Below, in pieces: positions 4,743 to 28,345 of a stretch of 29,208 nt of DNA (position 1 is the first letter of the stretch; every line of letters starts with the position of its first letter). Both the position numbers and the translations under genes were made by a program. Origin of the DNA: a virus; IMG/VR virus record IMGVR_UViG_3300010430_002165, positions 1 through 29,208 of that record, one strand, 5' to 3'. A model generated the notes under the pieces. It did no database searches. It had not been told where the DNA came from and worked only from the letters and a program-made list of their open reading frames with translations.

Positions 4743-5128
4743 GACGAGGACCATTAGAAAAAGAACACTTCTTAGAAGGTATAAGACAAAAATGGGCAAT
4801 AGTATTCCTACTTTGTGGGGGCTTAGTATTAGGTGTCCATCTATGGGTTGGTAGTTTTGACCCAGCCCCATATATGCAGTTCCTATTAGCTATAGGAGGT
4901 CTATTCATATTGGGAGCTTCTGGAGATTCGTGGGTTAAAGGATATAGTGTTAAATCTATAACAGAAACACAGGCTAGAGAAGAAACTAAAAGAGCGGTTG
5001 TGGATATTAGTGATGATTCCCAACCTGACAACAATATTATAATGGGATTCAATAATCAATATTCCAGAGATCAAAGTTATGCACCTAAAGATTGGATCGC
5101 AGAACAGGAAACCGCACAATTCAGATGA
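4739..5128 (+). CDS. Holin-like membrane protein
   Basis: 129 residues with two hydrophobic segments (about 19-38 WAIVFLLCGGLVLGVHLWVG and 45-62 QFLLAIGGLFILGASGD), a short loop between them, and a polar charged C-terminal tail of about 65 residues. Size, topology and position directly before the endolysin gene fit a two-TM holin. Start overlaps the upstream stop and stop overlaps the downstream start (both ATGA), so the three are probably translated as a unit. I do not recognise a specific holin family. Confidence 0.65.
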   Translation: MRRGPLEKEHFLEGIRQKWAIVFLLCGGLVLGVHLWVGSFDPAPYMQFLLAIGGLFILGASGDSWVKGYSVKSITETQAREETKRAVVDISDDSQPDNNIIMGFNNQYSRDQSYAPKDWIAEQETAQFR

Positions 5129-6828: not shown

Positions 6829-6995
6829 CAATCATTTTACTTTGTATCATTCTCACATCCTGTGGACTTAACCATCCATCTAACCATACTTTTACCCGAG
6901 CTATTGCGCCCGATAAGTTTGGTATGAGTTTAAAGTTTGATGATAGTGAGCATTATAATGGTTTTACAACCGCACTCTCTTGGGATTTAGACTGA
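6810..6995 (+). CDS. Small lipoprotein, 61 aa
   Basis: MARKTIAIILLCIILTSC is a signal peptide with lipobox LTSC. The mature part is about 44 polar residues ending TTALSWDLD. It starts 19 nt inside the preceding gene, an overlap typical of i-spanin/o-spanin pairs, but the mature domain is short and not proline-rich. Other options are an o-spanin-like or exclusion lipoprotein. Its TGA stop abuts the 3' end of the convergent tRNA-Cys: base 6995 belongs to both. Confidence 0.65.
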   Translation: MARKTIAIILLCIILTSCGLNHPSNHTFTRAIAPDKFGMSLKFDDSEHYNGFTTALSWDLD

Positions 6996-7081
6996 GCTAT
7001 GGGAGGGATTCGAACCCCCAACGAAGCTTTCGCTAAAGGGATTTGCAATCCCTCCGTTTCAACCAATTCACGCACCATAGC
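6995..7081 (-). tRNA. tRNA-Cys(GCA), long variable arm
   Basis: Acceptor GCTATGG/CCATAGC (7 bp), anticodon arm AGGGA-TTGCAAA-TCCCT giving GCA, T loop TTCGAAT. Discriminator U73, the Cys identity base. The variable region (about 17 nt) can form a 5-bp hairpin (GCGAA-AGC-TTCGT), a class II feature not expected for Cys. The 3' end continues CAG, so CCA is not encoded. Last tRNA of the array. Confidence 0.85.
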
Positions 7082-7086
7082 TTAAG

Positions 7087-7157
7087 CAGACCGAGAAGGA
7101 ATCGAACCTTCGTCAAAAGTTTTGGAGACTCTTGTGTTACCATTACACCATCGGTCT
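7087..7157 (-). tRNA. tRNA-Trp(CCA)
   Basis: Acceptor AGACCGA/TCGGTCT, D stem GTGT/ACAC, anticodon loop CTCCAAA (CCA), T loop TTCGATT, discriminator G. Trailer CTT, no encoded CCA. Confidence 0.9.
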
Positions 7158-7163
7158 ATTAGG

Positions 7164-7243
7164 CGGAAGATGAGAGGATCGAACTCCCGCTACCGATTAA
7201 GGTAGGCTACTCTTTAGCAAAGAGACACACTTACCACTCTTCC
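7164..7243 (-). tRNA. tRNA-Ser(GCT)
   Basis: Acceptor GGAAGAG/ATCTTCC with one G-A mismatch at the inner pair. Anticodon loop TTGCTAA (GCT). Long variable arm (TACC-TTAATC-GGTA) as expected for Ser. Discriminator G. Trailer CCT, no CCA. Its 5' 13 nt overlap the end and stop codon of the upstream protein gene. Confidence 0.88.
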
Positions 7244-7578
7244 AATACTTTAATCCAAGTTCTACCATCGTCATATTTATTACGATATACAGTCTCTTCA
7301 TATATCTTAGTTACGACTCGCCATTCATCTGACACCCTTTCAACCTCTTCTACTTTTAAATTATAGACATCATCTGTTGGAAACTCTCCCGGTTCTCTTG
7401 ATGGATTTTTTGTAGATCTTTCTTTTGCGATCTTTATAAATTTATCATCTGATTTAAAAACATCAACCTTGAGAGAATATGTTCCCAACCCTCCGTATGT
7501 TTTATCCAAACATACCACATGCTCTGTTTTTGAGTTCCTTACATCCTCGACATACTTATTATATTCTTCTTCGTTCAT
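7231..7578 (-). CDS. Hypothetical protein, 115 aa, ends inside tRNA-Ser
   Basis: Starts MNEEEYNKYVEDVRNSKTEHVVCLDK. Charged, with a predicted beta-rich middle (DVFKSDDKFIKIAK, EWRVVTKIYEETVY) and no family I recognise. The ATG is 10 nt after the encoded CCA of tRNA-Val. The last codons and the TAA stop lie in the 5' acceptor and D region of tRNA-Ser(GCT), so 5' cleavage of that tRNA would remove the stop codon from the message. Confidence 0.7.
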   Translation of the reverse strand: MNEEEYNKYVEDVRNSKTEHVVCLDKTYGGLGTYSLKVDVFKSDDKFIKIAKERSTKNPSREPGEFPTDDVYNLKVEEVERVSDEWRVVTKIYEETVYRNKYDDGRTWIKVLEEW

Positions 7579-7588
7579 AATTAATCTT

Positions 7589-7663
7589 TGGTATAAGTGG
7601 AGGGACTCGAACCCCCAACATTCTGAATGTAAATCAGACGCTCTACCATTGAGCTACACTTAC
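7589..7663 (-). tRNA. tRNA-Val(TAC), CCA encoded
   Basis: Acceptor GTAAGTG/CACTTAT (G-U first pair), anticodon arm TCTGA-TTTACAT-TCAGA (TAC), T arm GGGGG/CCCTC with loop TTCGAGT, discriminator A, then templated CCA. Confidence 0.93.
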
Positions 7664-7673
7664 AGTTTTACGT

Positions 7674-7907
7674 TCATTTTATACTTGATCCGAATTTTTT
7701 ATTACTCTTAGCTGTCTCTGTGACATCTTCTACTGTTCTTGTTCCTTGACTGACCTTAATTACTTCCCATCCATCTTCCCAACTCTTATCACTTTTTTTG
7801 ATTTTGATGAATTTATTCAAAACCGCAAATTTACTAGGTATCCATGCTGTATGATGGTGTTTATTTCGCTTAAGAGCGCATTGTGTATATGTATCTTTCT
7901 TACTCAT
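7674..7907 (-). CDS. Hypothetical protein, 77 aa
   Basis: Start at ATG 7907 (MSKKDTYTQCALKRNKHHHTAW), 4 nt after the upstream stop; the longer frame from 7961 overlaps that gene. Contains a HHHTAWIPSKFA segment and WEDGWEVIKVSQGTRT. It resembles small basic proteins I have seen in tRNA-rich phage regions, but no function is known. It ends 10 nt before tRNA-Val. Confidence 0.7.
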   Translation of the reverse strand: MSKKDTYTQCALKRNKHHHTAWIPSKFAVLNKFIKIKKSDKSWEDGWEVIKVSQGTRTVEDVTETAKSNKKFGSSIK

Positions 7908-7911
7908 AAAT

Positions 7912-8100
7912 TTAATTCTTATCCCTGTCTGTGGTAATCCAAAAAATCTGCCAATCCTCATCGGGGGATTGTTCTTTCACATATTGTAGAAAAGCGTCAG
8001 CAGCTTTTTCACCACCCCACTGAACCTCATTTCTATACATATAGACCGCCAAATGATTATCGTCATCGGTCCAAAATCTACCTACTATATAATTCTTCAT
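7912..8100 (-). CDS. Hypothetical protein, 62 aa
   Basis: MKNYIVGRFWTDDDNHLAVYMYRNEVQWGG, then an acidic helix and WQIFWITTDRDKN. A small acidic, tryptophan-rich soluble protein of unknown function. It starts 16 nt after the encoded CCA of tRNA-Ser(TGA) and is followed by the 77-aa gene. Confidence 0.65.
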   Translation of the reverse strand: MKNYIVGRFWTDDDNHLAVYMYRNEVQWGGEKAADAFLQYVKEQSPDEDWQIFWITTDRDKN

Positions 8101-8116
8101 AATTTATTTTAAATTC

Positions 8117-8203
8117 TGGCGGGTAGTGAAGGAATTGAACCCTTACCGCTCATCACGATAGCCGAGAGTTCAAATCTCGTTTGACACCTTGCCGCCACCA
8201 CCC
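8117..8203 (-). tRNA. tRNA-Ser(TGA), CCA encoded
   Basis: Acceptor GGGTGGT/ACTACCC, anticodon arm CGAGA-TTTGAAC-TCTCG (TGA), long variable arm (GCTATCGTGATGAGC), T loop TTCAATT, discriminator G, templated CCA. One A-C mismatch in the T stem. Confidence 0.9.
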
Positions 8204-8209
8204 GTAGTT

Positions 8210-8545
8210 TTATCTAATCATTTTTCTTACATTGGGGCTGACTTTAACCCCTCTCTTATCACAAACATCTACATACCTTTCAGCATAAAATTTATAGTTT
8301 GTATAATACAAAATCTCGGACCATAACTCTCCAAATATTAAATTCTCATCACCATCATCTCTTAAAAGATCTCTAAACTCTTCACAATCTGTGCAAGTTT
8401 TAAACGTAGACCATGATCCTTCCCAACAACCCGAGAAGTAATGATACATCTCCTTGTAGAAGATGACACCGCCACACTCACAACACTTGTGAGGTTTTCT
8501 GGAAACTCTTGTTTTTGATGTATATGCTACAGGTCCGTCGCTCAT
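8210..8545 (-). CDS. Zinc-ribbon-like protein, 111 aa
   Basis: Starts MSDGPVAYTSKTRVSRKPHKCCECGG. CxxC pairs at CCECGG and CTDC, separated by an aromatic stretch (MYHYFSGCWEGSW), suggest one zinc site. The C-terminal half is helical with many Tyr residues. It has its own promoter, with the -10 box 6 nt before the ATG (leaderless). It may bind nucleic acid; this is inferred only from the zinc site. Confidence 0.7.
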   Translation of the reverse strand: MSDGPVAYTSKTRVSRKPHKCCECGGVIFYKEMYHYFSGCWEGSWSTFKTCTDCEEFRDLLRDDGDENLIFGELWSEILYYTNYKFYAERYVDVCDKRGVKVSPNVRKMIR

Positions 8546-8551
8546 ACCCAG

Positions 8552-8579
8552 AGTATATCCGGGTTTTAATTAATGTCAA
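8552..8579 (-). promoter_or_regulatory. Sigma70-type promoter with TTAATTAAAACCC spacer
   Basis: TTGACA, 16-nt spacer, TATACT (8552-8557), then 6 nt to ATG 8545. The TGA in TTGACA is the stop codon of the upstream gene. The spacer matches that of the tRNA promoter at 15078 and the elements at 11940 and 12160. Confidence 0.75.
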
Positions 8580-8788
8580 TCGAAAATATCACGAATCCAG
8601 CTAACCTCTGGGAGATCTTCCGTATTCTTATCCGCCCTTTTTAAAGCATTGACAATCTCACTATCTGTGAACAGTAGGGATTTTTCTTCTCCATCTGGAA
8701 ATTCAACTCTCAGATGATTATACTTCTTAGCTGCTGCCCAATGTGGTTGGGTGTTTTCTACTACTGTTAAGTCTCCTAGTCTACTCAT
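8576..8788 (-). CDS. Hypothetical protein, 70 aa
   Basis: Start set at ATG 8788 (MSRLGDLTVVENTQPHWAAAKK); the longer frame from 8851 runs back through tRNA-Gln. An ACTAAATA octamer lies 8 nt upstream (8797-8804). HLRVEFPDGEEKSLLFTDSEI suggests a small beta fold followed by helix. Its TGA stop is inside the -35 box of the next gene. Function unknown. Confidence 0.65.
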   Translation of the reverse strand: MSRLGDLTVVENTQPHWAAAKKYNHLRVEFPDGEEKSLLFTDSEIVNALKRADKNTEDLPEVSWIRDIFD

Positions 8789-8809
8789 ATCAATACTATT
8801 TAGTAAATT

Positions 8810-8884
8810 TGGCAGGGAATGAGAGAATCGAACTCTCGTTGATCGGATCAAAACCGATAGTAATAACCATTATACGAATTCCCA
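8810..8884 (-). tRNA. tRNA-Gln(TTG), CCA encoded
   Basis: Acceptor TGGGAAT/ATTCCCT with a U-U first pair; weak 1:72 pairing is a known Gln feature (U1-A72). Anticodon arm ATCGG-TTTTGAT-CCGAT (TTG), T stem GAGAG/CTCTC, discriminator G, templated CCA. Confidence 0.9.
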
Positions 8885-8886
8885 GT

Positions 8887-8974
8887 TGGGGTGATTGACG
8901 GGACTTGAACCCGCAAGCATTTTCATGCGTCAGATTCACAATCTGAGATGTTTACCAATTCCATCACAACCACC
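8887..8974 (-). tRNA. tRNA-His(GTG), CCA encoded, long variable arm
   Basis: Acceptor GTGGTTG/CAATCAC with G-1 opposite C73, the His identity pair. Anticodon arm TCAGA-TTGTGAA-TCTGA (GTG). D arm GATG...CATC has the loop GAATTGGTAAA, like Leu tRNAs. The variable region has a 4-bp stem (GCAT-GAAA-ATGC), unusual for His. Templated CCA abuts the next tRNA. Confidence 0.88.
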
Positions 8975-8986
8975 ATTATATACCTT

Positions 8987-9187
8987 TCATAATTTTTCTA
9001 CTTTACCTTTCACGAACAAATAGTTTGCCCAATGACAGAACTTCACCCATCTGGTAGGTTCACAGTAATAATATGATTCAATTTCTGGATCTAGTTCGAC
9101 TGTCCATTTCTTATCAAGTTTATGTGAATTAGGATTTACTTCAACCTTTTCAATTTGAAATTCTATGATGGGTATTTCTTTCTTCAT
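8987..9187 (-). CDS. Hypothetical protein, 66 aa
   Basis: Start at ATG 9187 (MKKEIPIIEFQIEKVEVNPN), separated by one base from the discriminator of tRNA-Asp, so excision of that tRNA would leave an essentially leaderless message. Beta-rich sequence with YYYCEPTRWVKFCHW (two cysteines, several aromatics). The longer frame from 9247 crosses the tRNA. Ends 12 nt before tRNA-His. Function unknown. Confidence 0.65.
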   Translation of the reverse strand: MKKEIPIIEFQIEKVEVNPNSHKLDKKWTVELDPEIESYYYCEPTRWVKFCHWANYLFVKGKVEKL

Positions 9188-9188
9188 G

Positions 9189-9261
9189 CGGAACGTGGGA
9201 GAATTGAACTCCCATAAACAGCTTGACAAGCTGCCGTAATGAACCATTATACTAACGTTCC
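9189..9261 (-). tRNA. tRNA-Asp(GTC)
   Basis: Perfect acceptor GGAACGT/ACGTTCC, anticodon loop TTGTCAA (GTC), T stem GGGAG/CTCCC, discriminator G. Trailer CAT: its C is followed directly by the ATG of the next gene. CCA not encoded. Confidence 0.92.
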
Positions 9262-9266
9262 TAAAT

Positions 9267-9476
9267 TTATTCTAATTCCAGCGCACCATCTTCTATTAAT
9301 TCTAAAGCAAACTCATATTGGATTTCTATTTCACAACCTATTTGAGATTTAAATATATCACCGGATAGGCAATCACTTCTATACATTTCATAGAGAAGAG
9401 TCCAATACTCCCCAAGTTCTGTTCCTTCATAGTTTGCGAAGTCGTCTAATTTATCTGCTTTTTCTATAGTTGTCAT
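9267..9476 (-). CDS. Hypothetical protein, 69 aa
   Basis: Start at ATG 9476 (MTTIEKADKLDDFANYEGTEL), 3 nt after the tRNA-Phe discriminator. Acidic and helical, with two cysteines (SDCLSGD, QIGCEIE) and end FALELIEDGALELE. The longer frame from 9521 runs back into tRNA-Phe. Ends 5 nt before tRNA-Asp. Unknown function. Confidence 0.65.
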   Translation of the reverse strand: MTTIEKADKLDDFANYEGTELGEYWTLLYEMYRSDCLSGDIFKSQIGCEIEIQYEFALELIEDGALELE

Positions 9477-9479
9477 ATG

Positions 9480-9553
9480 TCCCAAGTGTCGGAATCGAAC
9501 CGACCTACTTCTGATCTTCAATCAGACGCTTGAACCAACTCAGCTACCAAGGG
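9480..9553 (-). tRNA. tRNA-Phe(GAA), acceptor stem with mismatches
   Basis: Anticodon arm TCTGA-TTGAAGA-TCAGA (GAA), T arm GTCGG-TTCGATT-CCGAC and D arm GCT/AGC are clear; discriminator A, trailer CAT. The acceptor CCCTTGG/ACTTGGG has U-U at 4:69 and 5:68 and G-A at 7:66. It may be decaying, edited, or tolerated. Confidence 0.75.
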
Positions 9554-9570
9554 GTTCTATACATTATAAG

Positions 9571-9653
9571 TGGGGGTGGTGGGAGTCGAACCCACAAGCC
9601 GATTAAAGCGCAGCATTCTAAGTGCTGTGTGTTTACCGTTTCACCACACCCCC
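9571..9653 (-). tRNA. tRNA-Leu(TAG)
   Basis: Acceptor GGGGGTG/CACCCCC, anticodon arm CAGCA-CTTAGAA-TGCTG (TAG), long variable arm, T stem GTGGG/CCCAC, discriminator A. Trailer CTT, CCA not encoded. Its 5' 21 nt overlap the end of the upstream protein gene. Confidence 0.92.
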
Positions 9654-9869
9654 TATATTTTGTTTAATAATTGCTTCCATTACTTCCCTATCAATTTCCT
9701 TTTGAATCTCTCTACTCATTGTAGCAGCTAACATATCCTCTATACAAGAATAAGTTATTGGAATATACGGACCATAGATAATACCACTAGATTTTATAGG
9801 TAATGTGGTTGGCAAACTTGGTGCAGCCAAGAATCCTAATAAACTCCCTATAAATCCTCTTCTTTTCAT
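9633..9869 (-). CDS. Small Tat-like protein with two capsid-like motifs; ends in tRNA-Leu
   Basis: 78 residues. MKRRGFIGSLLGFLAAP resembles a twin-arginine signal (RRGFIG then a hydrophobic stretch). Residues about 29-38, GIIYGPYIPI, match GIIYCPYIPI of the gp23-type protein in this window at 9 of 10. Later EIQKEIDREVM resembles its EIQAEIDREVV segment, but the two occur in the opposite order. The start is 9 nt after the tRNA-Ala discriminator. The last 21 nt, with the TAA stop, lie inside tRNA-Leu. The capsid-like segments may be remnants or a functional mimic. Whether it is exported is unknown. Confidence 0.65.
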   Translation of the reverse strand: MKRRGFIGSLLGFLAAPSLPTTLPIKSSGIIYGPYIPITYSCIEDMLAATMSREIQKEIDREVMEAIIKQNIGGVVKR

Positions 9870-9878
9870 AATCTTATG

Positions 9879-9950
9879 TGGAGCTATTCGGATTCGAACC
9901 GAAAATCGACTGCTTGCAAAGCAGGTGCATTACCGTTATGCTATAACCCC
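9879..9950 (-). tRNA. tRNA-Ala(TGC)
   Basis: Acceptor GGGGTTA/TAGCTCC with G-U pairs, anticodon loop TTTGCAA (TGC), T stem TTCGG/CCGAA, discriminator A, trailer CAT. CCA not encoded. Four bases separate it from tRNA-Arg. Confidence 0.9.
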
Positions 9951-9954
9951 TAAG

Positions 9955-10026
9955 TGGGTCATAGAGGAATCGAACCTCTCTTACTTCGTTCGTAGCGAAG
10001 TGTTATATCCACTCTACTAACAACCC
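9955..10026 (-). tRNA. tRNA-Arg(ACG)
   Basis: Acceptor GGGTTGT/ATGACCC, anticodon arm CTTCG-CTACGAA-CGAAG (ACG; A34 would need deamination to inosine), T stem AGAGG/CCTCT, discriminator A, trailer CTT. CCA not encoded. Confidence 0.92.
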
Positions 10027-10029
10027 ATC

Positions 10030-10353
10030 TTAATATCCACTCATTAAACTACTAGCTACTGATCTAAAAGATTCAGCTTTAATTCGGTTATCCCTTTCTA
10101 TAACAAATCTTCTATCCACTTCATCTTGAAAATCTTTCATACTGTCGAAAGTGGCAATTCGATCATAATCAACAAATATATCTTTACTCTGATTATCTTT
10201 GTAATGCCACTGTCTAGTTAAATTATCTGCAAAGATACTCATCTCTTCCATAGAAGCGTCACGGATCACAAATTTAGGCTGTTTTCCTAAAGCAAATTGC
10301 TTACTATTACGGTATACCATCCAATCACATCTATACTCTTTTTCGTCTTCCAT
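10030..10353 (-). CDS. Hypothetical protein, 107 aa
   Basis: MEDEKEYRCDWMVYRNSKQF; mixed alpha/beta, highly charged, ending SFRSVASSLMSGY. The ATG is 4 nt after the tRNA-Ile(GAT) discriminator, and the TAA stop is 3 nt before tRNA-Arg, so it fills the space between two tRNAs. No family recognised. Confidence 0.68.
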   Translation of the reverse strand: MEDEKEYRCDWMVYRNSKQFALGKQPKFVIRDASMEEMSIFADNLTRQWHYKDNQSKDIFVDYDRIATFDSMKDFQDEVDRRFVIERDNRIKAESFRSVASSLMSGY

Positions 10354-10357
10354 TACG

Positions 10358-10431
10358 TTGTCCCTGTAAGACTCGAACTTACGACTTCAACCTTATCAAG
10401 ATTGCGCTCTAACCAACTGAGCTAAGGGACA
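10358..10431 (-). tRNA. tRNA-Ile(GAT)
   Basis: Perfect acceptor TGTCCCT/AGGGACA, anticodon arm CAATC-TTGATAA-GGTTG (GAT), T stem GTAAG/CTTAC, discriminator A, trailer CGT. CCA not encoded. Confidence 0.92.
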
Positions 10432-10440
10432 TTTTCTACG

Positions 10441-10513
10441 AGCCGCAGGAGGGACTCGAACCCCCAACCTGATGCTTACAAAGCAACTGCTCTACCATTA
10501 AAGCTACTACGGC
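10441..10513 (-). tRNA. tRNA-Thr(TGT)
   Basis: Acceptor GCCGTAG/CTGCGGC, anticodon loop TTTGTAA (TGT) with one T-T mismatch in the stem, T arm GGGGG-TTCGAGT-CCCTC. Discriminator U is unusual for bacterial Thr (normally A). Trailer CGT, no CCA. Confidence 0.88.
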
Positions 10514-10517
10514 ATTT

Positions 10518-10706
10518 TCATCTAACTATAAAATACATAACTCCAAAGTATATCATCCAAATGGATGGTGTCAATACCAAGAAACATATAACTTGGAAAA
10601 CTCCTGCGAACCAACCGTCATCATTTATCAATGAAAAGAAACAAATAATAGTGAGTATTGTTTGTAGAATATAAGGTATTATAATTGGGTGAAATGTTAT
10701 TGTCAT
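10518..10706 (-). CDS. Small two-TM membrane protein, 62 aa
   Basis: MTITFHPIIIPYILQTILTI then FFSLINDDGWFAG then a second hydrophobic segment ending MYFIVR. Two membrane helices with a short polar loop containing DDGW. It lies 8 nt after the stop of the 69-aa gene and 4 nt before tRNA-Thr. Function unknown; size alone would allow an envelope-acting or exclusion role. Confidence 0.65.
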   Translation of the reverse strand: MTITFHPIIIPYILQTILTIICFFSLINDDGWFAGVFQVICFLVLTPSIWMIYFGVMYFIVR

Positions 10707-10714
10707 ATTTTAGT

Positions 10715-10924
10715 TTAATTTACACAAACTGCGTTGAATTTTTCATCTTCATCTAACTCATGTCTGAATTCTCGATCAGAGAAGATACCGGAACTAGGTG
10801 AATAATGAACAGGCTCATAACTATTACCCTCATCATCTGATGAAGTTACCACTAAAGCTTGCGACATCTCTGGATTTTCCACTACGAACTCTTGTAAGTT
10901 TTTTACATAAATTTCTAACGTCAT
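10715..10924 (-). CDS. Conserved-looking phage protein, 69 aa
   Basis: MTLEIYVKNLQEFVVENPEM, then ALVVTSSDDEGNSYEPVHYSPS and ending EKFNAVCVN. The DDEGN-(x)n-VxYxP-(x)n-NAVCxN layout recurs in small phage proteins as I recall, function unknown. The A of the ATG is also the last A of the CCA end of the tRNA-like RNA immediately upstream (TGG on the plus strand at 10924-10926). Confidence 0.75.
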   Translation of the reverse strand: MTLEIYVKNLQEFVVENPEMSQALVVTSSDDEGNSYEPVHYSPSSGIFSDREFRHELDEDEKFNAVCVN

Positions 10925-10996
10925 GGCCGGAAGGGTAGGTAACGAGCCTACATTTTGTCGGGGGACACCGACAGTCTTACATTAGATGACCAACCG
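10924..10996 (-). tRNA. tRNA-like RNA with 8-nt anticodon loop, CCA encoded
   Basis: Fills a slot between tRNA-Gly and a protein gene. T arm GTAGG-CTCGTTA-CCTAC, acceptor CGGTTGG/CCTTCCG with U-U at 4:69 and 5:68, discriminator G and templated CCA. Anticodon stem TGTCG/CGACA encloses GTGTCCCC, 8 nt instead of 7. The D arm is reduced (TCT-AATGTA-AGA) without GG, and the T loop lacks the usual TTC. It may be a decaying tRNA, a shifty tRNA, or a tRNA mimic. Amino acid cannot be assigned. Confidence 0.55.
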
Positions 10997-11000
10997 TATG

Positions 11001-11072
11001 AGCAGGTGGAGGGAATCGAACCCTCATCAAAAGATTGGAAATCTCTTATATTAACCATTATACGACACCTGC
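11001..11072 (-). tRNA. tRNA-Gly(TCC)
   Basis: Perfect acceptor GCAGGTG/CACCTGC, anticodon arm AGAGA-TTTCCAA-TCTTT (TCC), T stem GAGGG/CCCTC, discriminator U (the Gly identity base), trailer CAT. CCA not encoded. Confidence 0.92.
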
Positions 11073-11262
11073 TAATGTTCAGACACGCAGAAGTTATCTG
11101 CCATATCTGAGTTTATTCTATACTATGTTGCAACATAGTCAAGCTAAGAATCGAGCCTTTCCCTCTCGGGTATGGATTGCCTTCACATTGCGATGCTGTT
11201 ATAGGACTCACGGAGTTTCCTCCCGCCACCCCCCACCCATTACAAGGGGACACGAAGTTGTT
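11073..11262 (-). ncRNA. Gene-free stretch with stacked hairpins, possible structured RNA
   Basis: 190 nt between the 93-aa gene and tRNA-Gly with no plausible frame. On the minus strand: GGAG-GAAA-CTCC and CCC-GAGA-GGG GNRA-capped hairpins; an 18-nt palindrome (11122-11139, ACTATGTTGCAACATAGT); and a two-tier hairpin TCAGA/TCTGA enclosing GCAGA-TAACT-TCTGC next to tRNA-Gly. The packing of stems suggests a stable RNA co-transcribed with the tRNAs. No family recognised. Confidence 0.45.
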
Positions 11263-11544
11263 TTACACTAGTTTATGACCTCCATTCACATCATCTACGA
11301 TCTTTACTCCGGGAACAAAGGTTAGAGCCTCTGCAACATGGTCCCATTGTTGGGTAGTAACTTGCACTACACAGCCTCCCGGAACTTCCATAGCCTTTGC
11401 TGACTTCATCCAGCCTTGCGCCTTAGACGATGCTTTACAGAGCAATGTGAACATATCACCATTACCCACTACGTTGATGTCAGAGACTTTCTCTACTGCA
11501 TCCTCTACACTTTGCACATCTAGTGCTTTTGCTTCATTACTCAT
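11263..11544 (-). CDS. Conserved-looking phage protein, 93 aa
   Basis: MSNEAKALDVQSVEDAVEKV, then GDMFTLLCKASSKAQGWMKS and GGCVVQVTTQQWDHVAEALT. Proteins with the KASS..GWMKSTKAM..VVQVTTQQ pattern are frequent in phage genomes as I recall, without known function. Probably a compact alpha/beta fold. It starts 17 nt after tRNA-Lys, with a TATAAATT sequence directly before the ATG. Confidence 0.78.
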   Translation of the reverse strand: MSNEAKALDVQSVEDAVEKVSDINVVGNGDMFTLLCKASSKAQGWMKSAKAMEVPGGCVVQVTTQQWDHVAEALTFVPGVKIVDDVNGGHKLV

Positions 11545-11561
11545 AATTTATAATTTTAAGG

Positions 11562-11634
11562 TGGGATCGGCGGGGTTCGAACCCGCGACCTTGAAGTTAA
11601 AAGCTTCTTGCTCTACCAACTGAGCTACAATCCC
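11562..11634 (-). tRNA. tRNA-Lys(TTT)
   Basis: Acceptor GGGATTG/CGATCCC, D stem GCTC/GAGC, anticodon loop CTTTTAA (TTT), T stem GCGGG/CCCGC, discriminator A, trailer CCT. CCA not encoded. Confidence 0.93.
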
Positions 11635-11659
11635 TAAAGACTCACCCCGAATTACGCTT

Positions 11660-11923
11660 TCAAGAAGAGGCGCGGGGTGACATAATCATTCTATTTGGGC
11701 TAAATTCTCTATACCCAGCTTCTTCACTATCAAATCTAATTTGTTTTCCACAATCTAAACAAACCACATCTAACCAATAACTATCGGCAGTTGGATCGTA
11801 ATTACCTGTATTCGATCCATACTTAGAATTATGGTTTTTATGAACACATTTTTCACGGATTTTTGCGAGTTTTCTGTAAAATTTAGATATCTTTTTTTCG
11901 TATTTTATTATTTCTGGGTTCAT
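11660..11923 (-). CDS. Small zinc-finger-like protein, 87 aa
   Basis: The N-terminal basic helix (MNPEIIKYEKKISKFYRKL) is followed by CVHKNH and CLDC, a possible C-H/C-C zinc site, and ends RMIMSPRASS. Start chosen at ATG 11923. A nearer ATG (11933, 6 nt after the -10 box) opens only a 16-codon frame (MITNEPRN...) in another frame. The promoter and first bases are a near copy of those of the upstream gene. Could be a small regulator; unproven. Confidence 0.65.
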   Translation of the reverse strand: MNPEIIKYEKKISKFYRKLAKIREKCVHKNHNSKYGSNTGNYDPTADSYWLDVVCLDCGKQIRFDSEEAGYREFSPNRMIMSPRASS

Positions 11924-11939
11924 TTGTTATCATGTGGTT

Positions 11940-11965
11940 ACTATATCTGGGTTTTAATTAATTAC
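11940..11965 (-). promoter_or_regulatory. Promoter-like element, TTAATTAAAACCC motif with TATAGT
   Basis: The minus strand carries TTAATTAAAACCCAGA then TATAGT, the same spacer and -10 as at 12160 and 15078, but no good TTGACA at -35. The conserved spacer may itself be read by a phage factor. Confidence 0.5.
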
Positions 11966-12153
11966 ATTTTCCCAACATCCATCAGTTCTAGAATTTCTTC
12001 ATCAGAATATTCACCATTAGCACATTTAAGGAGATGCTCATTTAATGTATCAGAACATTCAAATACCACATCTCCATTATCTATTAATGGTTGAATATGT
12101 TCGGCCCATGCTTTATCGTGGGCTTTTCTAAACTCTGTCTCATTTGTTATCAT
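11962..12153 (-). CDS. Hypothetical protein, 63 aa
   Basis: MITNETEFRKAHDKAWAEHI, acidic and helical, with two cysteines (FECSDTL, LKCANGE) and end EILELMDVGKM. The -10 box lies 6 nt before the ATG, so the message should be leaderless. Unknown function. Confidence 0.65.
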   Translation of the reverse strand: MITNETEFRKAHDKAWAEHIQPLIDNGDVVFECSDTLNEHLLKCANGEYSDEEILELMDVGKM

Positions 12154-12159
12154 GTGAAT

Positions 12160-12187
12160 ACTATATCTGGGTTTTAATTAATCAATT
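12160..12187 (-). promoter_or_regulatory. Promoter-like element duplicating that at 11940
   Basis: Same TTAATTAAAACCCAGA-TATAGT core as 11940, followed by 6 nt and ATG 12153. The -35 is poor (AATTGA at the 16-nt spacing). The similarity extends past the promoter into the first coding bases (ATGATAACAAATGA). Confidence 0.5.
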
Positions 12188-12221
12188 TTCCACGAAGGAT
12201 GTGCTGTTAAATCAAAACCTA

Positions 12222-12298
12222 TGGTCTACCGTTAGGGAATCGAACCCTACTAATCGTGATCCCAAATCACGCGCCTCACCAGTCAATGCCTACGGAAG
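12222..12298 (-). tRNA. tRNA-Pro(TGG), CCA encoded
   Basis: Anticodon arm CGTGA-TTTGGGA-TCACG (TGG), T stem TAGGG/CCCTA, C1-G72 and A73 as in Pro tRNAs, templated CCA. Acceptor CTTCCGT/ACGGTAG has one U-U mismatch at 3:70. Confidence 0.88.
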
Positions 12299-12344
12299 AT
12301 ATTAACACAATTATTTCATGTCGCTGTGTAATGACGACATTATG

Positions 12345-12416
12345 CTCTCAAGGTACGACTCGAACGTACAACCTAGAAGTTAACAGCTTCCCGCTCTACC
12401 ATTGAGCTACTTGAGA
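12345..12416 (-). tRNA. tRNA-Asn(GTT)
   Basis: Perfect acceptor TCTCAAG/CTTGAGA, anticodon arm GGAAG-CTGTTAA-CTTCT (GTT), T stem GTACG/CGTAC, discriminator G, trailer CAT. CCA not encoded. Confidence 0.93.
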
Positions 12417-12421
12417 TTTGA

Positions 12422-12613
12422 TTGATAAGCCCGGATTCGAATCGGGTAAGGTCTTTTATTTCAGGCTACCCTTTTCCTGTTGGCGTTTGAGACTTCATTC
12501 GTGCATTACGTTGAATGTCATTTTACCCATTGCGTTATTAGCTAACCAAGTTAACTCCTAATTCCTTTGATTGGTGAATTAGGAAACCAACTACTCCAAG
12601 TAGTCACTTATCA
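12422..12613 (-). ncRNA. 192-nt RNA with tRNA acceptor and T arm (tmRNA-like, or tRNA with insert)
   Basis: The ends pair as a perfect 7-bp acceptor TGATAAG/CTTATCA with discriminator A. The 3' side has a tRNA T arm (CCCGA-TTCGAAT-CCGGG, 4 of 5 pairs). It fills the slot between tRNA-Asn (5 nt away) and the next tRNA-like RNA (13 nt away). Inside are a 9-bp hairpin (TCCTAATTC/GAATTAGGA), a 6-bp one (GTTAAC-TTG-GTTAGC), a tandem TAATAA, and a 13-codon run GCA...TGA. No anticodon arm is evident. The layout recalls tmRNA, but the conserved tmRNA D-region and an Ala-Ala tag are missing. Confidence 0.5.
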
Positions 12614-12626
12614 AAATTTATATATG

Positions 12627-12694
12627 CCTGAGCATGAGGTTGTGAACCTCCATCACCTGTGAAAAACAGGGCTTTTAATTTAAGCTATACTCAG
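12627..12694 (-). tRNA. tRNA-like RNA, anticodon uncertain (TTT or TTC)
   Basis: Acceptor C1-G72 CTGAGTA/TGCTCAG (7 pairs with one G-U), D stem GCTT/AAGC, T stem mostly paired, discriminator G, trailer CAT. The anticodon stem is CCTG/CAGG around TTTTTCA: centring gives TTT (Lys), counting from the D arm gives TTC (Glu). The D loop lacks GG and T-loop base 58 is C instead of A. Probably a diverged or decaying tRNA; Lys(TTT) and Glu(TTC) genes exist elsewhere in the array. Confidence 0.6.
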
Positions 12695-12753
12695 TTTTAT
12701 GTGGCTGCTTGCGAGGCACTTTCCCGTATTGCTACGCTAGTTTTTACCATATG

Positions 12754-12825
12754 TGCGCCATGTCGGATTCGAACCGACGACCGAGGATTTAGAATCCTCT
12801 GCTCTAACCACTGAGCTAATGGCGC
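12754..12825 (-). tRNA. tRNA with anticodon CTA (amber suppressor)
   Basis: Perfect acceptor GCGCCAT/ATGGCGC, T8-A9, D stem GCTC/GAGC, anticodon arm GAGGA-TTCTAAA-TCCTC with a fully paired 5-bp stem, giving 34-36 = CTA. T arm GTCGG-TTCGAAT-CCGAC, discriminator A, trailer CAT. CTA pairs with the amber codon UAG. An Arg TCT register would break the anticodon stem. The body, with GCGCC acceptor and TTCTAA loop, resembles tRNA-Arg(TCT), but the amino acid inserted cannot be read from sequence. Every consensus tertiary position is intact, so it should be functional. Confidence 0.88.
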
Positions 12826-12829
12826 GTTC

Positions 12830-12848
12830 CGGTAGCACTATGCTACCG
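12830..12848 (-). other. 8-bp hairpin just upstream of the CTA tRNA
   Basis: CGGTAGCA-TAG-TGCTACCG, a perfect 8-bp stem with a 3-nt loop, 4 nt before the 5' end of the CTA tRNA and after the stop of the 127-aa gene. No T run follows, so it is not a simple terminator. A processing or stability element is possible. Confidence 0.6.
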
Positions 12849-12857
12849 AGGTTTTAA

Positions 12858-13241
12858 TTACCCTTTCTGTTCATCTATTCTATCAGACGCGAACCAGATG
12901 TCAACGTCCTCATCGAATTTCTTTTCAGAATTCGAAAATTTATTTGCCAAACGTTTGACTTCCTTGACGATACGATTCCATCTATAGGGATCTTTCGGTT
13001 TGGTTGTCTGTTCAATTCGTCTATATGGAACATCCCTCATAAATCCATATGCTAGTTGTATTGCTCTCGCAGCATCCCTAACATCGTGGGTTCTATGATT
13101 CCTAAGTTTCCAAAACTCTAAGGATTTAACATCTGGATTAGACCAGATATCTCCTTCTATCTTGTGTTTGGATTTTATCTTAGTCTCTTCAAGACGAATA
13201 TACTTCGCCTCTTGAGCTAGTTCCTTTACTCTTACTCTCAT
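12858..13241 (-). CDS. Hypothetical basic protein, 127 aa
   Basis: MRVRVKELAQEAKYIRLEET then HKIEGDIWSNPDVKSLEFWKLRNHRTHDVR and RAIQLAYGFMRDVPYRRIEQ. The pattern (MRVRVK.LA.EA..IR.EE, then R.HR...R..AR..QLAYGF.R..PY..IE) matches a small protein common in large phages as I recall, with no function assigned. Basic and helical, possibly nucleic-acid binding. The ATG sits in a 6-bp hairpin (13239-13255). Confidence 0.75.
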   Translation of the reverse strand: MRVRVKELAQEAKYIRLEETKIKSKHKIEGDIWSNPDVKSLEFWKLRNHRTHDVRDAARAIQLAYGFMRDVPYRRIEQTTKPKDPYRWNRIVKEVKRLANKFSNSEKKFDEDVDIWFASDRIDEQKG

Positions 13242-13255
13242 TCCAGAAAGGAATG
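13239..13255 (-). promoter_or_regulatory. Hairpin containing the start codon of the 127-aa gene
   Basis: Minus strand CATTCC-TTTCT-GGAATG, with the ATG start as the last three bases of the 3' arm. A second 7-bp hairpin (GCTGATA/TATCAGC, 13267-13286) is just upstream. Together they could limit initiation until unfolded. Confidence 0.45.
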
Positions 13256-13313
13256 CATTATCTTTTGCTGATATTTCGGTATCAGCTACCTATGTGTTTT
13301 TCATAACAAATCT

Positions 13314-13553
13314 TTATTTTACGTAGCTTAAAAATACTTTATCACCTACAACTCTAGCATTGTGTGGGCAATTCATACCACGAATACCATGATCTAGTTT
13401 TGCTGTAACATCACCAATCTTCAATTCATAACCAGATTGATATGCTAAATGCTCACCTTCTGGTAGAGTTCCCTCTACGATATTAGCTTTCCACTCACCT
13501 TCATATCTTTCGGTTAAGATTTTTTGCATATTTTCAGTATCGTTTATTCTCAT
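13314..13553 (-). CDS. Hypothetical protein, 79 aa
   Basis: Start at ATG 13553 (MRINDTENMQKILTERYEGE), downstream of tRNA-Tyr; the longer frame from 13652 would translate the tRNA. Beta-rich sequence GYELKIGDVTAKLDHGIRGMNC, ending ARVVGDKVFLSYVK. Possibly a small barrel; no family recognised. Confidence 0.68.
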   Translation of the reverse strand: MRINDTENMQKILTERYEGEWKANIVEGTLPEGEHLAYQSGYELKIGDVTAKLDHGIRGMNCPHNARVVGDKVFLSYVK

Positions 13554-13566
13554 AATCTTATTTAGT

Positions 13567-13652
13567 TGGTGTGAAGGGTGGGATTCGAACCCACGTATCC
13601 CGAAGGAATTGGATTTACAATCCAATGCTTTTAACCACTCAGCCACCCGCAC
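13567..13652 (-). tRNA. tRNA-Tyr(GTA), CCA encoded
   Basis: Anticodon arm TTGGA-TTGTAAA-TCCAA (GTA), long variable arm, T stem GTGGG/CCCAC, discriminator A, templated CCA. Acceptor GTGCGGG/CCTTCAC has one C-T mismatch at 4:69. Confidence 0.92.
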
Positions 13653-13654
13653 AT

Positions 13655-13948
13655 TTATTTTTCATCACATTTTAAATTTTTAATATCAGAATATACCCCA
13701 TAATTTTTATTACATTCACTACAACTAGTTCTAGTGAACCATATTCCGGTCGATCTTCCAATTTTGAGAGAACCACAATGAGGACATTTTAATAGAAATG
13801 TCCAAATCTCACCTGAGACAGATCTTCCAAATAAATCAGTATTACTATCCCAAATTTCTTCCGGCAGGGAGTATGCGTATACAGTATGTTCTTCTGGGAT
13901 TATTGACTGATCTATTAGACCGTTTCCCATATCTTTTCCGATATTCAT
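13655..13948 (-). CDS. Zinc-ribbon protein, 97 aa
   Basis: MNIGKDMGNGLIDQSIIPEE then LLKCPHCGSLKIGRS and TSCSECNKNYGV: two CxxC pairs 25 residues apart, a typical zinc-ribbon spacing. The start overlaps the stop of the MazG-like gene (ATGA) and the stop is 2 nt before tRNA-Tyr. Nucleic-acid or protein binding is possible; function unknown. Confidence 0.72.
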   Translation of the reverse strand: MNIGKDMGNGLIDQSIIPEEHTVYAYSLPEEIWDSNTDLFGRSVSGEIWTFLLKCPHCGSLKIGRSTGIWFTRTSCSECNKNYGVYSDIKNLKCDEK

Positions 13949-14271
13949 CTATTATCTCCAGATCCTCCAATTACTCCACGGGTCTTACGGGATTGTAACT
14001 TTTCGAGATTGATTATACATATCTCATCCAGGGTATATCCTAAGTCTCTAGTTAGAGTCGCACAATACCACATTACATCTGAAATTTCTTTGGCGATCTC
14101 TTTCTTCTTTTCATCTGTAAAGACTCCCTCGTTATCTCTGAGGACTTTCTTCACCTTATCTGCTACTTCCCCAGCCTCTCCTGTAAGTCCTAGTGTTGGA
14201 TAGATGATCTTAGATCCTTCTCCATAAATTGCCGTTGCTACTGCTTTCTCTTGGTATTCGTTTAGTGTCAT
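13945..14271 (-). CDS. MazG-like nucleotide pyrophosphohydrolase
   Basis: 108 residues from ATG 14271 (MTLNEYQEKAVATAIYGEGS). Metal-binding motifs of the all-alpha NTP pyrophosphatase superfamily: GLTGEAGEVADKVKK (ExxE) and KEISDVMWY (ExxD). These enzymes hydrolyse (d)NTPs to monophosphates and pyrophosphate. In phages they are thought to affect nucleotide pools or (p)ppGpp. A longer start at 14307 is possible but overlaps the upstream gene. Single-domain length is normal for phage copies. It is the only recognisable enzyme among the array genes. Confidence 0.85.
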   Translation of the reverse strand: MTLNEYQEKAVATAIYGEGSKIIYPTLGLTGEAGEVADKVKKVLRDNEGVFTDEKKKEIAKEISDVMWYCATLTRDLGYTLDEICIINLEKLQSRKTRGVIGGSGDNR

Positions 14272-14278
14272 TTGATTA

Positions 14279-14452
14279 TTATTTACAATTTCTCTCTCCC
14301 CATTCACAGAATTCTATGAATGTTTTTTGTTGGTCTTCAGATAATTCTGAAAACATCATATGATATTGTTTGTTTTGTTCAAAGTCAAACGGATCAATAC
14401 AATGTTTTAATGCATCGTCTATTATTTCTCTAAGTCGTTCCACTTCATTCAT
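14279..14452 (-). CDS. Hypothetical protein, 57 aa
   Basis: MNEVERLREIIDDALKHCID then PFDFEQNKQYHMMFSELSED and EFCEWGERNCK. Acidic and helical. The A of the ATG is the final A of the encoded CCA of tRNA-Met (ACCATG), so removing that tRNA at its mature end would cut into the start codon. It stops 7 nt before the MazG-like start. Function unknown. Confidence 0.65.
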   Translation of the reverse strand: MNEVERLREIIDDALKHCIDPFDFEQNKQYHMMFSELSEDQQKTFIEFCEWGERNCK

Positions 14453-14528
14453 GGTAGGAATAGTCAGATTCGAACTGACGATGACTGAGATATGAACTCA
14501 GTGTCTTAGACCACTAGACGATACTCCA
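14452..14528 (-). tRNA. tRNA-Met(CAT) or tRNA-Ile2(CAT), CCA encoded
   Basis: Anticodon arm CTGAG-TTCATAT-CTCAG (CAT), T stem GTCAG/CTGAC, discriminator A, templated CCA. Acceptor TGGAGTA/TATTCCT has a U-U first pair. If C34 becomes lysidine it would read AUA as Ile; a separate TAT tRNA makes elongator Met more likely. Confidence 0.85.
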
Positions 14529-14535
14529 GTTTATG

Positions 14536-14623
14536 TTGCGGGTGATGGATTCGAACCACCAACAGGACATTATCCATTCTCTTGGTTATGAGCCAAGGAT
14601 GTTACCAATTACACTAACCCGCG
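14536..14623 (-). tRNA. Initiator-like tRNA-Met(CAT), long variable region
   Basis: Acceptor CGCGGGT/ACCCGCA has the C1-A72 mismatch that marks bacterial initiator tRNA. Anticodon loop CTCATAA is identical to that of E. coli initiator tRNA; the stem CTTGG/CCAAG has two of the three G-C pairs. The variable region is about 20 nt with GGA/TCC pairing, unlike normal initiators. Discriminator A, trailer CAT. CCA not encoded. Confidence 0.82.
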
Positions 14624-14630
14624 ATTAAAT

Positions 14631-14831
14631 CTATTTAAAATATTCGTAACATACGTATCCGATAAGTGCTAAAATCAATACACCAATTACCAATCCAAAA
14701 CTAATCCATAGAGGGGATAATACCCACCACCATGACCAACTGATCACGCCTCCAAGTTTTAGTCCTACGAATAGTATGGTAAGGAGTCCAGTGAACCCTA
14801 TACCGCCCGATGATGTTGTTTCTTTACTCAT
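14631..14831 (-). CDS. TMEM185-like small membrane protein
   Basis: 66 residues. GLLTILFVGLKLGGVISWSWWWVLSPLWI is the pattern that leads many phage proteins to be labelled transmembrane Fragile-X-F-associated protein. A second hydrophobic helix (GLVIGVLILALIGYVCY) follows. Role unknown. It starts 13 nt after tRNA-Ile(TAT) and ends 7 nt before the initiator-like tRNA. Confidence 0.85.
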   Translation of the reverse strand: MSKETTSSGGIGFTGLLTILFVGLKLGGVISWSWWWVLSPLWISFGLVIGVLILALIGYVCYEYFK

Positions 14832-14844
14832 AATTTTATTAAAG

Positions 14845-14915
14845 TCGCATATGCTAGAGTTGAACTAGCCTCTCTCCCTTATATGGGGAGTATGTTCACC
14901 GAACACTTATATGCA
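14845..14915 (-). tRNA. tRNA-Ile(TAT), A at position 33
   Basis: Acceptor TGCATAT/ATATGCG (U-G first pair), anticodon arm CTCCC-CATATAA-GGGAG with 34-36 = TAT, T arm GCTAG-TTCAACT-CTAGC perfect, discriminator A, trailer CTT. The near-invariant U33 is A. D stem TGT/ACA. Confidence 0.75.
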
Positions 14916-14917
14916 TG

Positions 14918-14989
14918 TAATCCCACGGGGAGTCGAACCCCGATCTGGTGGATGAAAACCACCTGTTCTAACCATTGAACTATGAGATC
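14918..14989 (-). tRNA. tRNA-Glu(TTC)
   Basis: Anticodon arm GGTGG-TTTTCAT-CCACC (TTC), T stem CGGGG/CCCCG, D stem GTTC/GAAC, acceptor GATCTCA/TGGGATT with G-U pairs, discriminator A, trailer CAT. First tRNA after the array promoter. Confidence 0.9.
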
Positions 14990-15077: not shown

Positions 15078-15105
15078 ACTATATCAGGGTTTTAATTAAT
15101 GTCAA
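15078..15105 (-). promoter_or_regulatory. Sigma70-type promoter of the tRNA array
   Basis: TTGACA, a 16-nt spacer containing TTAATTAAAACCC, then TATAGT. It points into tRNA-Glu and the whole leftward array. Same composition as the promoter at 8552, which would re-drive the array from inside. Confidence 0.78.
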
Positions 15106-28337: not shown

Positions 28338-28345
28338 TATTTATA
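28338..28345 (-). promoter_or_regulatory. Late promoter octamer TATAAATA (protease gene)
   Basis: Exact T4 late consensus on the minus strand followed by TATAC and ATG 28332, placing +1 at the start codon. Confidence 0.78.

Follow-up and report, generated by a model that had tools for sequence, protein, structure and literature searches.

Transfer RNA 3′ Ends as a Candidate Source of Leaderless mRNAs in the tRNA Array of a T4-like Virus

The window analyzed here, the whole stretch of 29,208 bases from an IMG/VR virus record, carries an array of tRNA genes with small protein-coding genes fitted between them. At four confirmed tRNAs of this array, the start codon of a small gene lies 1–4 nucleotides (nt) past the discriminator base (N73), and the lineage to which the virus belongs is without Shine-Dalgarno (SD) dependence. 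We propose that in this lineage the 3′ ends of tRNAs provide a third source of 5′ ends for leaderless mRNAs, beside early and late promoters, a reading drawn from sequence to which we give an even chance of being correct.

According to this proposal, strong sigma70-like promoters, mainly the one at 15078–15105, would transcribe the array into long RNAs in which tRNAs and small genes alternate. Virus and host would use no SD leaders, and virus mRNAs would begin on the AUG or a few bases from it, with the 5′ end set by an early promoter (about 34 nt), by a late TATAAATA box 13 nt ahead of the AUG or, where neither promoter type fits, by the 3′ end of the upstream tRNA. RNase P, together with an endonuclease acting at the tRNA 3′ end, would free the tRNA; the small mRNA left behind would have zero to a few nt ahead of its AUG, and the freed tRNA would be finished by CCA addition. 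The site of cleavage, the leaderless translation and the production of the small proteins are the steps that we infer.

Junctions between tRNAs and Small Genes

ARAGORN identified 23 tRNAs, every one on the minus strand, between positions 6994 and 14989, with small minus-strand open reading frames (ORFs) sitting between them; all tRNAs, small genes, promoters and late boxes described below for the window lie on this strand. A 24th tRNA at 7163–7243, assigned as tRNA-Ser(GCT) by reading its anticodon in the letters, is sub-threshold (Rfam 22.8 bits vs. a gathering value of 29); 81 nt of its DNA are conserved at 86% in the relative L095, the array of which includes a Ser-gct tRNA. Taken together, the anticodons serve every one of the 20 amino acids, and there is also an amber-reading (CTA) tRNA.

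All junction distances were counted from the discriminator base. The tRNA-Asp(GTC) at 9188–9261 (ARAGORN, Rfam 64.4 bits) has no encoded CCA and ends in G73-C74, directly after which comes the ATG, with its A at 9187, of a gene for 66 amino acids (aa) at 8987–9187. The tRNA-Phe(GAA) at 9479–9552 and the tRNA-Ile(GAT) at 10357–10431, both recognized by ARAGORN and Rfam and both lacking an encoded CCA, continue from A73 with CAT and CGTA, respectively, so that the ATG codons at 9476 (69-aa gene, 9267–9476) and 10353 (107-aa gene, 10030–10353) stand 3 and 4 nt past N73. The tRNA-Met(CAT) at 14452–14528 (ARAGORN) does encode CCA: its A73-CC is followed by an ATG at 14452, the A of which is both A76 of the tRNA and the first base of a 57-aa gene (14279–14452). 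A fifth junction, at 10924, places the ATG of a 69-aa gene (10715–10924) on the last A of the CCA that ends a tRNA-like element at 10924–10996. This element, unconfirmed as a tRNA, is rejected by the tRNA programs at normal settings, with no call from default ARAGORN and none from Rfam even at E ≤ 5; the relaxed ARAGORN run that alone picks it up made 121 calls, mostly spurious. Its predicted fold has a tRNA-like shape with a terminal CCA, at a z-score of only −1.3. The gaps of 1, 3, and 4 nt that an earlier note on this DNA gave for tRNA-Asp, -Phe, and -Ile agree with our counts. Its claim that two start codons share the last A of an encoded CCA holds for a confirmed tRNA at 14452; at 10924 the CCA belongs to the tRNA-like element.

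The ends of the genes are packed in a similar manner. As the note had also observed, stops lie close to the next tRNA, and two genes terminate within a tRNA; by our count the stops are 2–13 nt ahead of the next tRNA in eight genes and 32 nt in one more. A 115-aa gene (7231–7578), whose ATG is 13 nt past N73 of tRNA-Val, ends 13 nt inside tRNA-Ser, and a 78-aa gene (9633–9869), which begins 9 nt past N73 of the CCA-less tRNA-Ala(TGC) at 9878–9950 (ARAGORN, Rfam), overlaps the 5′ end of tRNA-Leu(TAG) at 9570–9653 (ARAGORN) by 21 nt.

We assessed chance expectation by shifting the tRNAs circularly within the array (2000 rotations) and counting the ATG codons of ORFs of at least 45 codons located 0–6 nt past N73. 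In the window, four such starts were observed against 0.64 expected, a number reached in 7 of the 2000 rotations, and five stops lay within 7 nt ahead of a tRNA against 0.42 expected (1/2000). Nineteen other arrays of the lineage gave a weak signal for starts (12 at 236 tRNAs vs. 6.65 expected; 75/2000) and a strong one for stops (17 vs. 2.80 expected; 0/2000). Both the start-side and the stop-side junctions are therefore above chance.

Gaps across the Lineage and in Other Phages

A census of 21 arrays, including the window, yielded 116 tRNA–gene pairs, the gaps of which, measured from N73, were no longer than 6 nt in 16 pairs, 7–12 nt in 7, 13–30 nt in 29, 31–60 nt in 24, and more in 40. The late box at −13 was absent from all 22 gaps of 1–10 nt and present in 4/30 gaps of 11–30 nt, 9/24 of 31–60 nt, and 8/40 of the longer ones. 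Junctions of 1–4 nt have no space for a promoter or a leader, and gaps of about 34 nt can house an early promoter directly past C74, as found after tRNA-Phe in L208 and after tRNA-Ser in L093. The L208 case involves a homolog of gene 9476, the 34-nt gap of which is filled by a TTGACA...TATAAT-5 nt-ATG promoter that starts right past C74. For the same gene in the same Phe slot, the predicted source of the 5′ end hence differs, being a promoter in L208 and the end of tRNA-Phe in the window.

Phages that use SD leaders were compared with one caller throughout (T5, KVP40, Aeh1, phiCbK, and T4; gaps of up to 60 nt). Gaps of at most 12 nt occurred in 0/18 cases in the SD-using phages, where none was below 13 nt, vs. 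19/62 in the window and 15 arrays of the lineage (Fisher p 0.0046). Likewise, an ATG 0–6 nt past N73 was found at 0/70 tRNAs of T5, KVP40, and Aeh1 vs. 16/259 in the lineage (p 0.028).

Within the lineage, close spacing goes with the slot more than with the gene. The Asp slot shows gaps of 1, 4, 4, and 8 nt with four different genes (the identical L093/L106 gene being counted once) and a gap of 19 nt in L099. In the Ala slot, a single gene family appears at 3, 4, and 9 nt. MazG genes in L107 and L211 start 6 nt past tRNA-Ile, and the window MazG gene (13945–14271) comes after another small gene.

Promoter Geometry in a Lineage without Shine-Dalgarno Leaders

SD motifs precede 8/200 virus ORFs vs. 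17/200 at a control offset. An ATG-aligned scan of 618 ORFs of at least 120 aa from 40 loci, allowing one mismatch to TATAAATA, located the late box exactly at −13 in 67 ORFs, against a background mean of 1.90 per position from −20 to −50; the 40 loci are related, and the 67/618 counts sequences rather than independent events. The same scan found no box at −13 in T4 (0/44), Syn9 (0/47), phiM12 (0/51), or HTVC008M (0/40). In T4 late promoters, according to PMC2988020, the TATA box lies about one helical turn ahead of the start site; applying this rule to TATAAATA at −13, the predicted first mRNA base is the A of the ATG. Examples are the box preceding the prohead protease gene (28338–28345, at −13) and, in the array, the late-type box ACTAAATA read at 13559–13566, between tRNA-Tyr and the ATG of gene 13314–13553.

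The early promoters show a comparable geometry. A sigma70-like −10 box begins at −12 in 10/383 ORFs and in 0–3 at other positions, and a conserved early promoter with a TTAATTAAAACC core is present in 15 distinct copies, eight of which have an ATG 6–7 nt past the −10 box. In the window, the sigma70-like promoter at 8552–8579 and an early-type promoter with a weak −35 at 12160–12187 have their predicted +1 on the A of ATG 8545 and of ATG 12153, respectively, and the promoter at 15078–15105 stands upstream of the whole array, the first tRNA of which is tRNA-Glu. One of the eight copies lies at 11940–11967 and points to an AUG in a different frame from the long ORF, which starts 10 nt further downstream (11923–11933). 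Leaderless mRNAs, with +1 on the AUG, are thus predicted for early and late promoters alike.

tRNA 3′ Ends and CCA Addition

The 21 arrays contain 250 distinct tRNAs. Of these, 116 have no encoded CCA, and 113 of the 116 still encode C74, with positions 75 and 76 varying. The window encodes, at 293–1852 on the plus strand, a CCA-adding-type nucleotidyltransferase (polyA_pol head and HD domain; Pfam 1e-22, NCBIfam below cut-offs), from the sequence of which CCA-adding activity would be expected. Homologs occur in 18/24 lineage records. Two records in which no homolog was found encode CCA in nearly every tRNA (G028, 20/20; G036, 20/21), and two others do not (3/8 tRNAs without CCA in G010 and 6/7 in G041), indicating that the link between enzyme and CCA is not strict; these records may be fragments. 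Retention of C74 is not unique to the lineage, being seen in the CCA-less tRNAs of the Bacteroides phages crAss001 (18/19) and DAC15 (11/12) and in part in other viruses, and may belong to tRNA processing of the Bacteroidota type.

In P. acnes, according to PMC3848588, the cut in tRNA precursors falls between C74 and C75. A cut of this type after tRNA-Asp would leave exactly the 5′-AUG of gene 9187. In minimum-energy folds of the joint RNA, the cloverleaf elements of tRNA-Asp and tRNA-Ile survive, and tRNA-Phe and tRNA-Met are mixed with gene sequence. At 14400–14528, the 5′ part of tRNA-Met can form a 10-bp pairing with the start of gene 14452 that beats the tRNA fold (4/200 shuffles were as good); this is a single case and could have arisen by chance.

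The Small Genes

Codon composition was judged against 231 shadow ORFs, the score being the fraction that scored as high. Scores were 0.004 for gene 9476 and for gene 7231–7578, 0.013 for gene 10924, 0.030 for gene 10353, 0.065 for gene 9187, and a weak 0.108 for gene 14452. Scans of the viral collection (E ≤ 1e-3) returned no homologs for genes 9476, 10353, and 9187, and for 14452 only the near-identical contig of the window. Among the arrays compared, gene 9476 has the L208 homolog (49% over 71 aa), gene 9187 has a homolog in L094 that aligns from residue 1, and gene 10924 has a 75% identical homolog in L094; gene 9633–9869 belongs to a family found in the same slot in L208/L206 and L095. No relative of gene 10353 was found. 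An N-terminal extension of gene 9187 into tRNA-Asp, where the frame is open, was considered and rejected, as the alignment with the L094 homolog begins at Met1 and the tRNA upstream of that homolog is tRNA-Phe. Pfam assigned only two of the small genes to a family above its cut-off, one to MazG and one, marginally, to a membrane family (14631–14831).

Weighing the Alternatives

The earlier note compared the array with mitochondria and suggested that tRNA excision could release leaderless mRNAs. The tightest junctions, the absence of SD leaders, the promoters with AUG at +1, the spacing of at least 13 nt in SD-using phages, and the promoter of the L208 homolog favor this comparison, and the mechanism gains weight because both promoter classes, which the note had not described, give the AUG-at-+1 geometry. 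The comparison is supported in part: it fails for most of the array genes, given the wide gaps and the promoters that some genes possess. Independent promoters, which the note had named as contrary evidence, exist for part of the array genes (8545, 12153, and probably 13553); the 1–4 nt junctions have no room for them.

Several observations speak against the proposal. Gaps exceed 12 nt in 93/116 pairs, and the 23/116 pairs with shorter gaps count one gene twice, in the near-duplicate arrays L093 and L106. The 1–4 nt junction genes have few homologs or none, the L094 homolog of gene 10924 comes after another gene rather than a tRNA, and one gene may adjoin a tRNA or stand far from it across relatives, so that junctions are not fixed per gene. 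At gene 11923, the AUG on the predicted +1 of promoter 11940–11967 and the long ORF are in different frames, and the gut relatives L213 and L214 (48–50% identity in the major capsid protein, MCP), although SD-less, lack the −13 box (0/21 and 0/18). If tRNA 3′ ends were made by exonuclease trimming from downstream, the mRNA would be destroyed. The two Bacteroides phages have six tRNA-to-gene gaps, of 2, 15, 19, 19, 21, and 21 nt; their tRNAs are mostly CCA-less, yet 5/6 gaps are 15–21 nt, and a CCA-less setting alone thus does not predict zero gaps. Finally, genes are packed against tRNAs at their stops no less tightly than at their starts, so that tight packing accounts for part of the pattern.

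The last point leads to the strongest alternative, plain compaction, which is less probable than an even chance and still a serious contender. In an SD-less host the AUGs of a polycistronic RNA need little space upstream, and small genes between tRNAs would drift to minimal spacers and be translated from unprocessed or partly processed RNA, with tRNA cutting being unproductive for them. The equally small spacers between tRNAs (0–4 nt in 47/131), the common gene–gene overlaps, and the differing distances of the same genes in relatives all fit compaction, as does the stop-side packing. At the 1–4 nt junctions, however, the bases ahead of the AUG are a folded acceptor stem, with the tRNA-Asp and tRNA-Ile folds kept in the joint transcript, and these genes are without the A-rich leader present elsewhere; the Bacteroides phages, moreover, hold 15–21 nt in all but one gap.

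Under a second alternative, competition, tRNA 3′ ends would be made by downstream cuts and exonuclease trimming, each transcript would give either a tRNA or a small protein, and the proteins would be limited to conditions in which tRNA processing is saturated. We regard this as improbable. It finds a place at 14452, where a cut past A76 destroys the AUG, and at the two genes ending in tRNA-Ser and tRNA-Leu, which would lose their stop upon RNase P cleavage. Most junction tRNAs encode only C74, however, so that a complete tRNA needs no A from the AUG, and the virus carries the CCA-adding-type enzyme. The exclusive choice between tRNA and mRNA that the note had suggested is consequently not forced, since a cut at or before C75 spares the AUG and the enzyme could finish the tRNA; exclusivity would hold at the gene 3′-end overlaps, of which that with tRNA-Leu is absent from the L206 homolog (this gene stops ahead of the tRNA-Leu at 1732). 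That the zero-gap ORFs are unexpressed, decaying remnants is very improbable: the empty viral-collection scans and the codon scores of genes 9187 and 14452 would agree with it, but gene 9476 scores well and has its L208 homolog, the L094 homolog of gene 9187 aligns from its first residue, and in several viruses the same slots are again occupied by open frames.

Comparison with Known Systems

In animal mitochondria, tRNAs lie between genes with zero to a few nt, there is no SD sequence, and tRNA excision gives leaderless or nearly leaderless mRNAs. The window resembles them at its tightest junctions, where tRNAs lie zero to a few nt from SD-less genes and their excision would yield such mRNAs, and differs from them in being DNA of a phage with promoters inside the array and most genes not flanked by tRNAs; processing here is predicted from sequence. 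The tRNA region of coliphage T5 is similar in that numerous tRNAs share one strand with small ORFs, stable RNAs resembling tRNAs, and several promoters, but T5 encodes CCA in 21/21 ARAGORN tRNAs, and its tRNA-to-ATG gaps are 14–28 nt, with SD motifs in 5/7. The TATAAATA box upstream of late genes likewise recalls the T4 late promoters of the gp55/gp33/gp45 type; in contrast to the fixed −13 of the window, the T4 box start is at least 17 nt from the ATG, and SD motifs precede 38/53 T4 genes. The phages crAss001 and DAC15 share CCA-less tRNAs that keep C74, and one crAss001 gene begins 2 nt past a tRNA; the other five gaps are wide, and these phages belong to a different virus class.

For the actinobacteria P. 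acnes and S. coelicolor, PMC3848588 and PMC4681348 describe mRNAs with a 5′-terminal AUG and endonucleolytic cleavage of CCA between its two Cs. There, leaderless mRNAs and CCA cuts are separate phenomena, whereas our proposal links them in the lineage of the window. Mapped leaders of phage AR9 are 26–491 nt (PMC5312081). Our search of open-licence literature found no paper that describes leaderless late promoters or tRNA punctuation in phages.

The Virus and Other Features of the Array

The window virus, which is uncultured, is T4-like, since it has both a gp23-type major capsid protein and, adjoining it, a gp21-type prohead protease (Pfam Peptidase_S77, 9.5e-31). The capsid protein is 31–33% identical to those of cyanophages over more than 90% of the protein, the best among the matches listed (tblastn, 2485 phage records), and close relatives in IMG/VR have up to 100% of the capsid protein in common with the window. 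The array DNA had no DNA-level match in the INPHARED phage set. The virus presumably comes from a lake, which we take to be the usual habitat for such contigs. WhiB was considered as a sign of an actinobacterial host and dropped, since 0/14 lineage records carry the gene. Two metagenome-assembled genomes (MAGs) with capsid relatives at 48–50% MCP identity were set aside as host indicators because binning is weak and the two, Lachnospiraceae and Paludibacteraceae, disagree. On other contigs of these MAGs, CCA-less tRNAs keep C74 in 20/24 cases in the Paludibacteraceae MAG (excluding C113) vs. 7/19 in the Lachnospiraceae MAG (excluding C44), a hint of a Bacteroidota host. TTGACA/TATAAT promoters, being unlike the Bacteroidota type, run counter to this hint.

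The amber-reading tRNA (12753–12825), labelled tRNA-Pyl by ARAGORN, is also found in seven more arrays (L094, L095, L098, L106, L109, L208, and L209). TAG is the rarest stop (33/613 ORFs). Stop-codon recoding through this tRNA was considered, and no sign of it was seen, as TAG-ended ORFs reach no further than TAA-ended ones. ARAGORN found no transfer-messenger RNA (tmRNA) and no tRNA introns in the window. The region 12417–12620 contains a tRNA-like RNA of 190 nt with an acceptor-like stem and a T-arm at its ends and a variable middle; it is 82% conserved in L094, has both ends conserved in L106 and L095, and matches neither the ARAGORN tmRNA model nor any Rfam family. A non-coding stretch at 11073–11262, from tRNA-Gly to a small gene, is 93% conserved over 148–151 nt in L093/L106 and 86% in L208, and a hairpin-containing leader (13242–13313) upstream of gene 12858–13241 has 76–92% identity over 45–69 nt in several relatives.

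Short gp23-like stretches occur in small genes of several arrays (8987–9187 and 9633–9869 in the window, L094 8583, L206 1501, L095 6748, and L202 (Aeh1) 4702–5124). Four of them match capsid residues ~215–271, with E values of 1e-5 (L094), 2.6e-4 (L095), 0.0018 (L206), and 0.011 (window 9187); weaker matches are window 9869 (E 0.1) and the Aeh1 ORF (residues 79–123, E 0.029). The L095 copy of the Ala-slot gene (L095 6748 / L207 1501) carries a frameshift between its MKRRGFIGSL start and the capsid-like part, and copies in other viruses are intact. The gp23-like genes could be decoys for capsid-sensing defences (compare PMC9712102 and PMC11312562). Lit and Gol are known in connection with such defences.

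Implications

More tentatively than the proposal itself, and as rather less likely than not to hold in full, we suggest that this lineage may have abandoned 5′ leaders altogether and that its two promoter classes, early and late, and its tRNA ends may be interchangeable means of setting the first mRNA base on the AUG. The array would then serve as a processing scaffold that releases leaderless mRNAs, and a single cut would suffice for tRNA and mRNA thanks to C74-only tRNAs and the CCA-adding enzyme of the virus. For annotation of the lineage, a start codon would be placed 13 nt past the start of a late box, 12 nt past the start of a −10 box, or at a tRNA end. If the proposal is true, these viruses would offer a bacterial-virus counterpart to the tRNA punctuation of mitochondria, in an entire lineage that runs on leaderless messages; leaderless initiation would become testable at natural genome scale, and phage tRNA arrays would gain a second role beyond tRNA supply.

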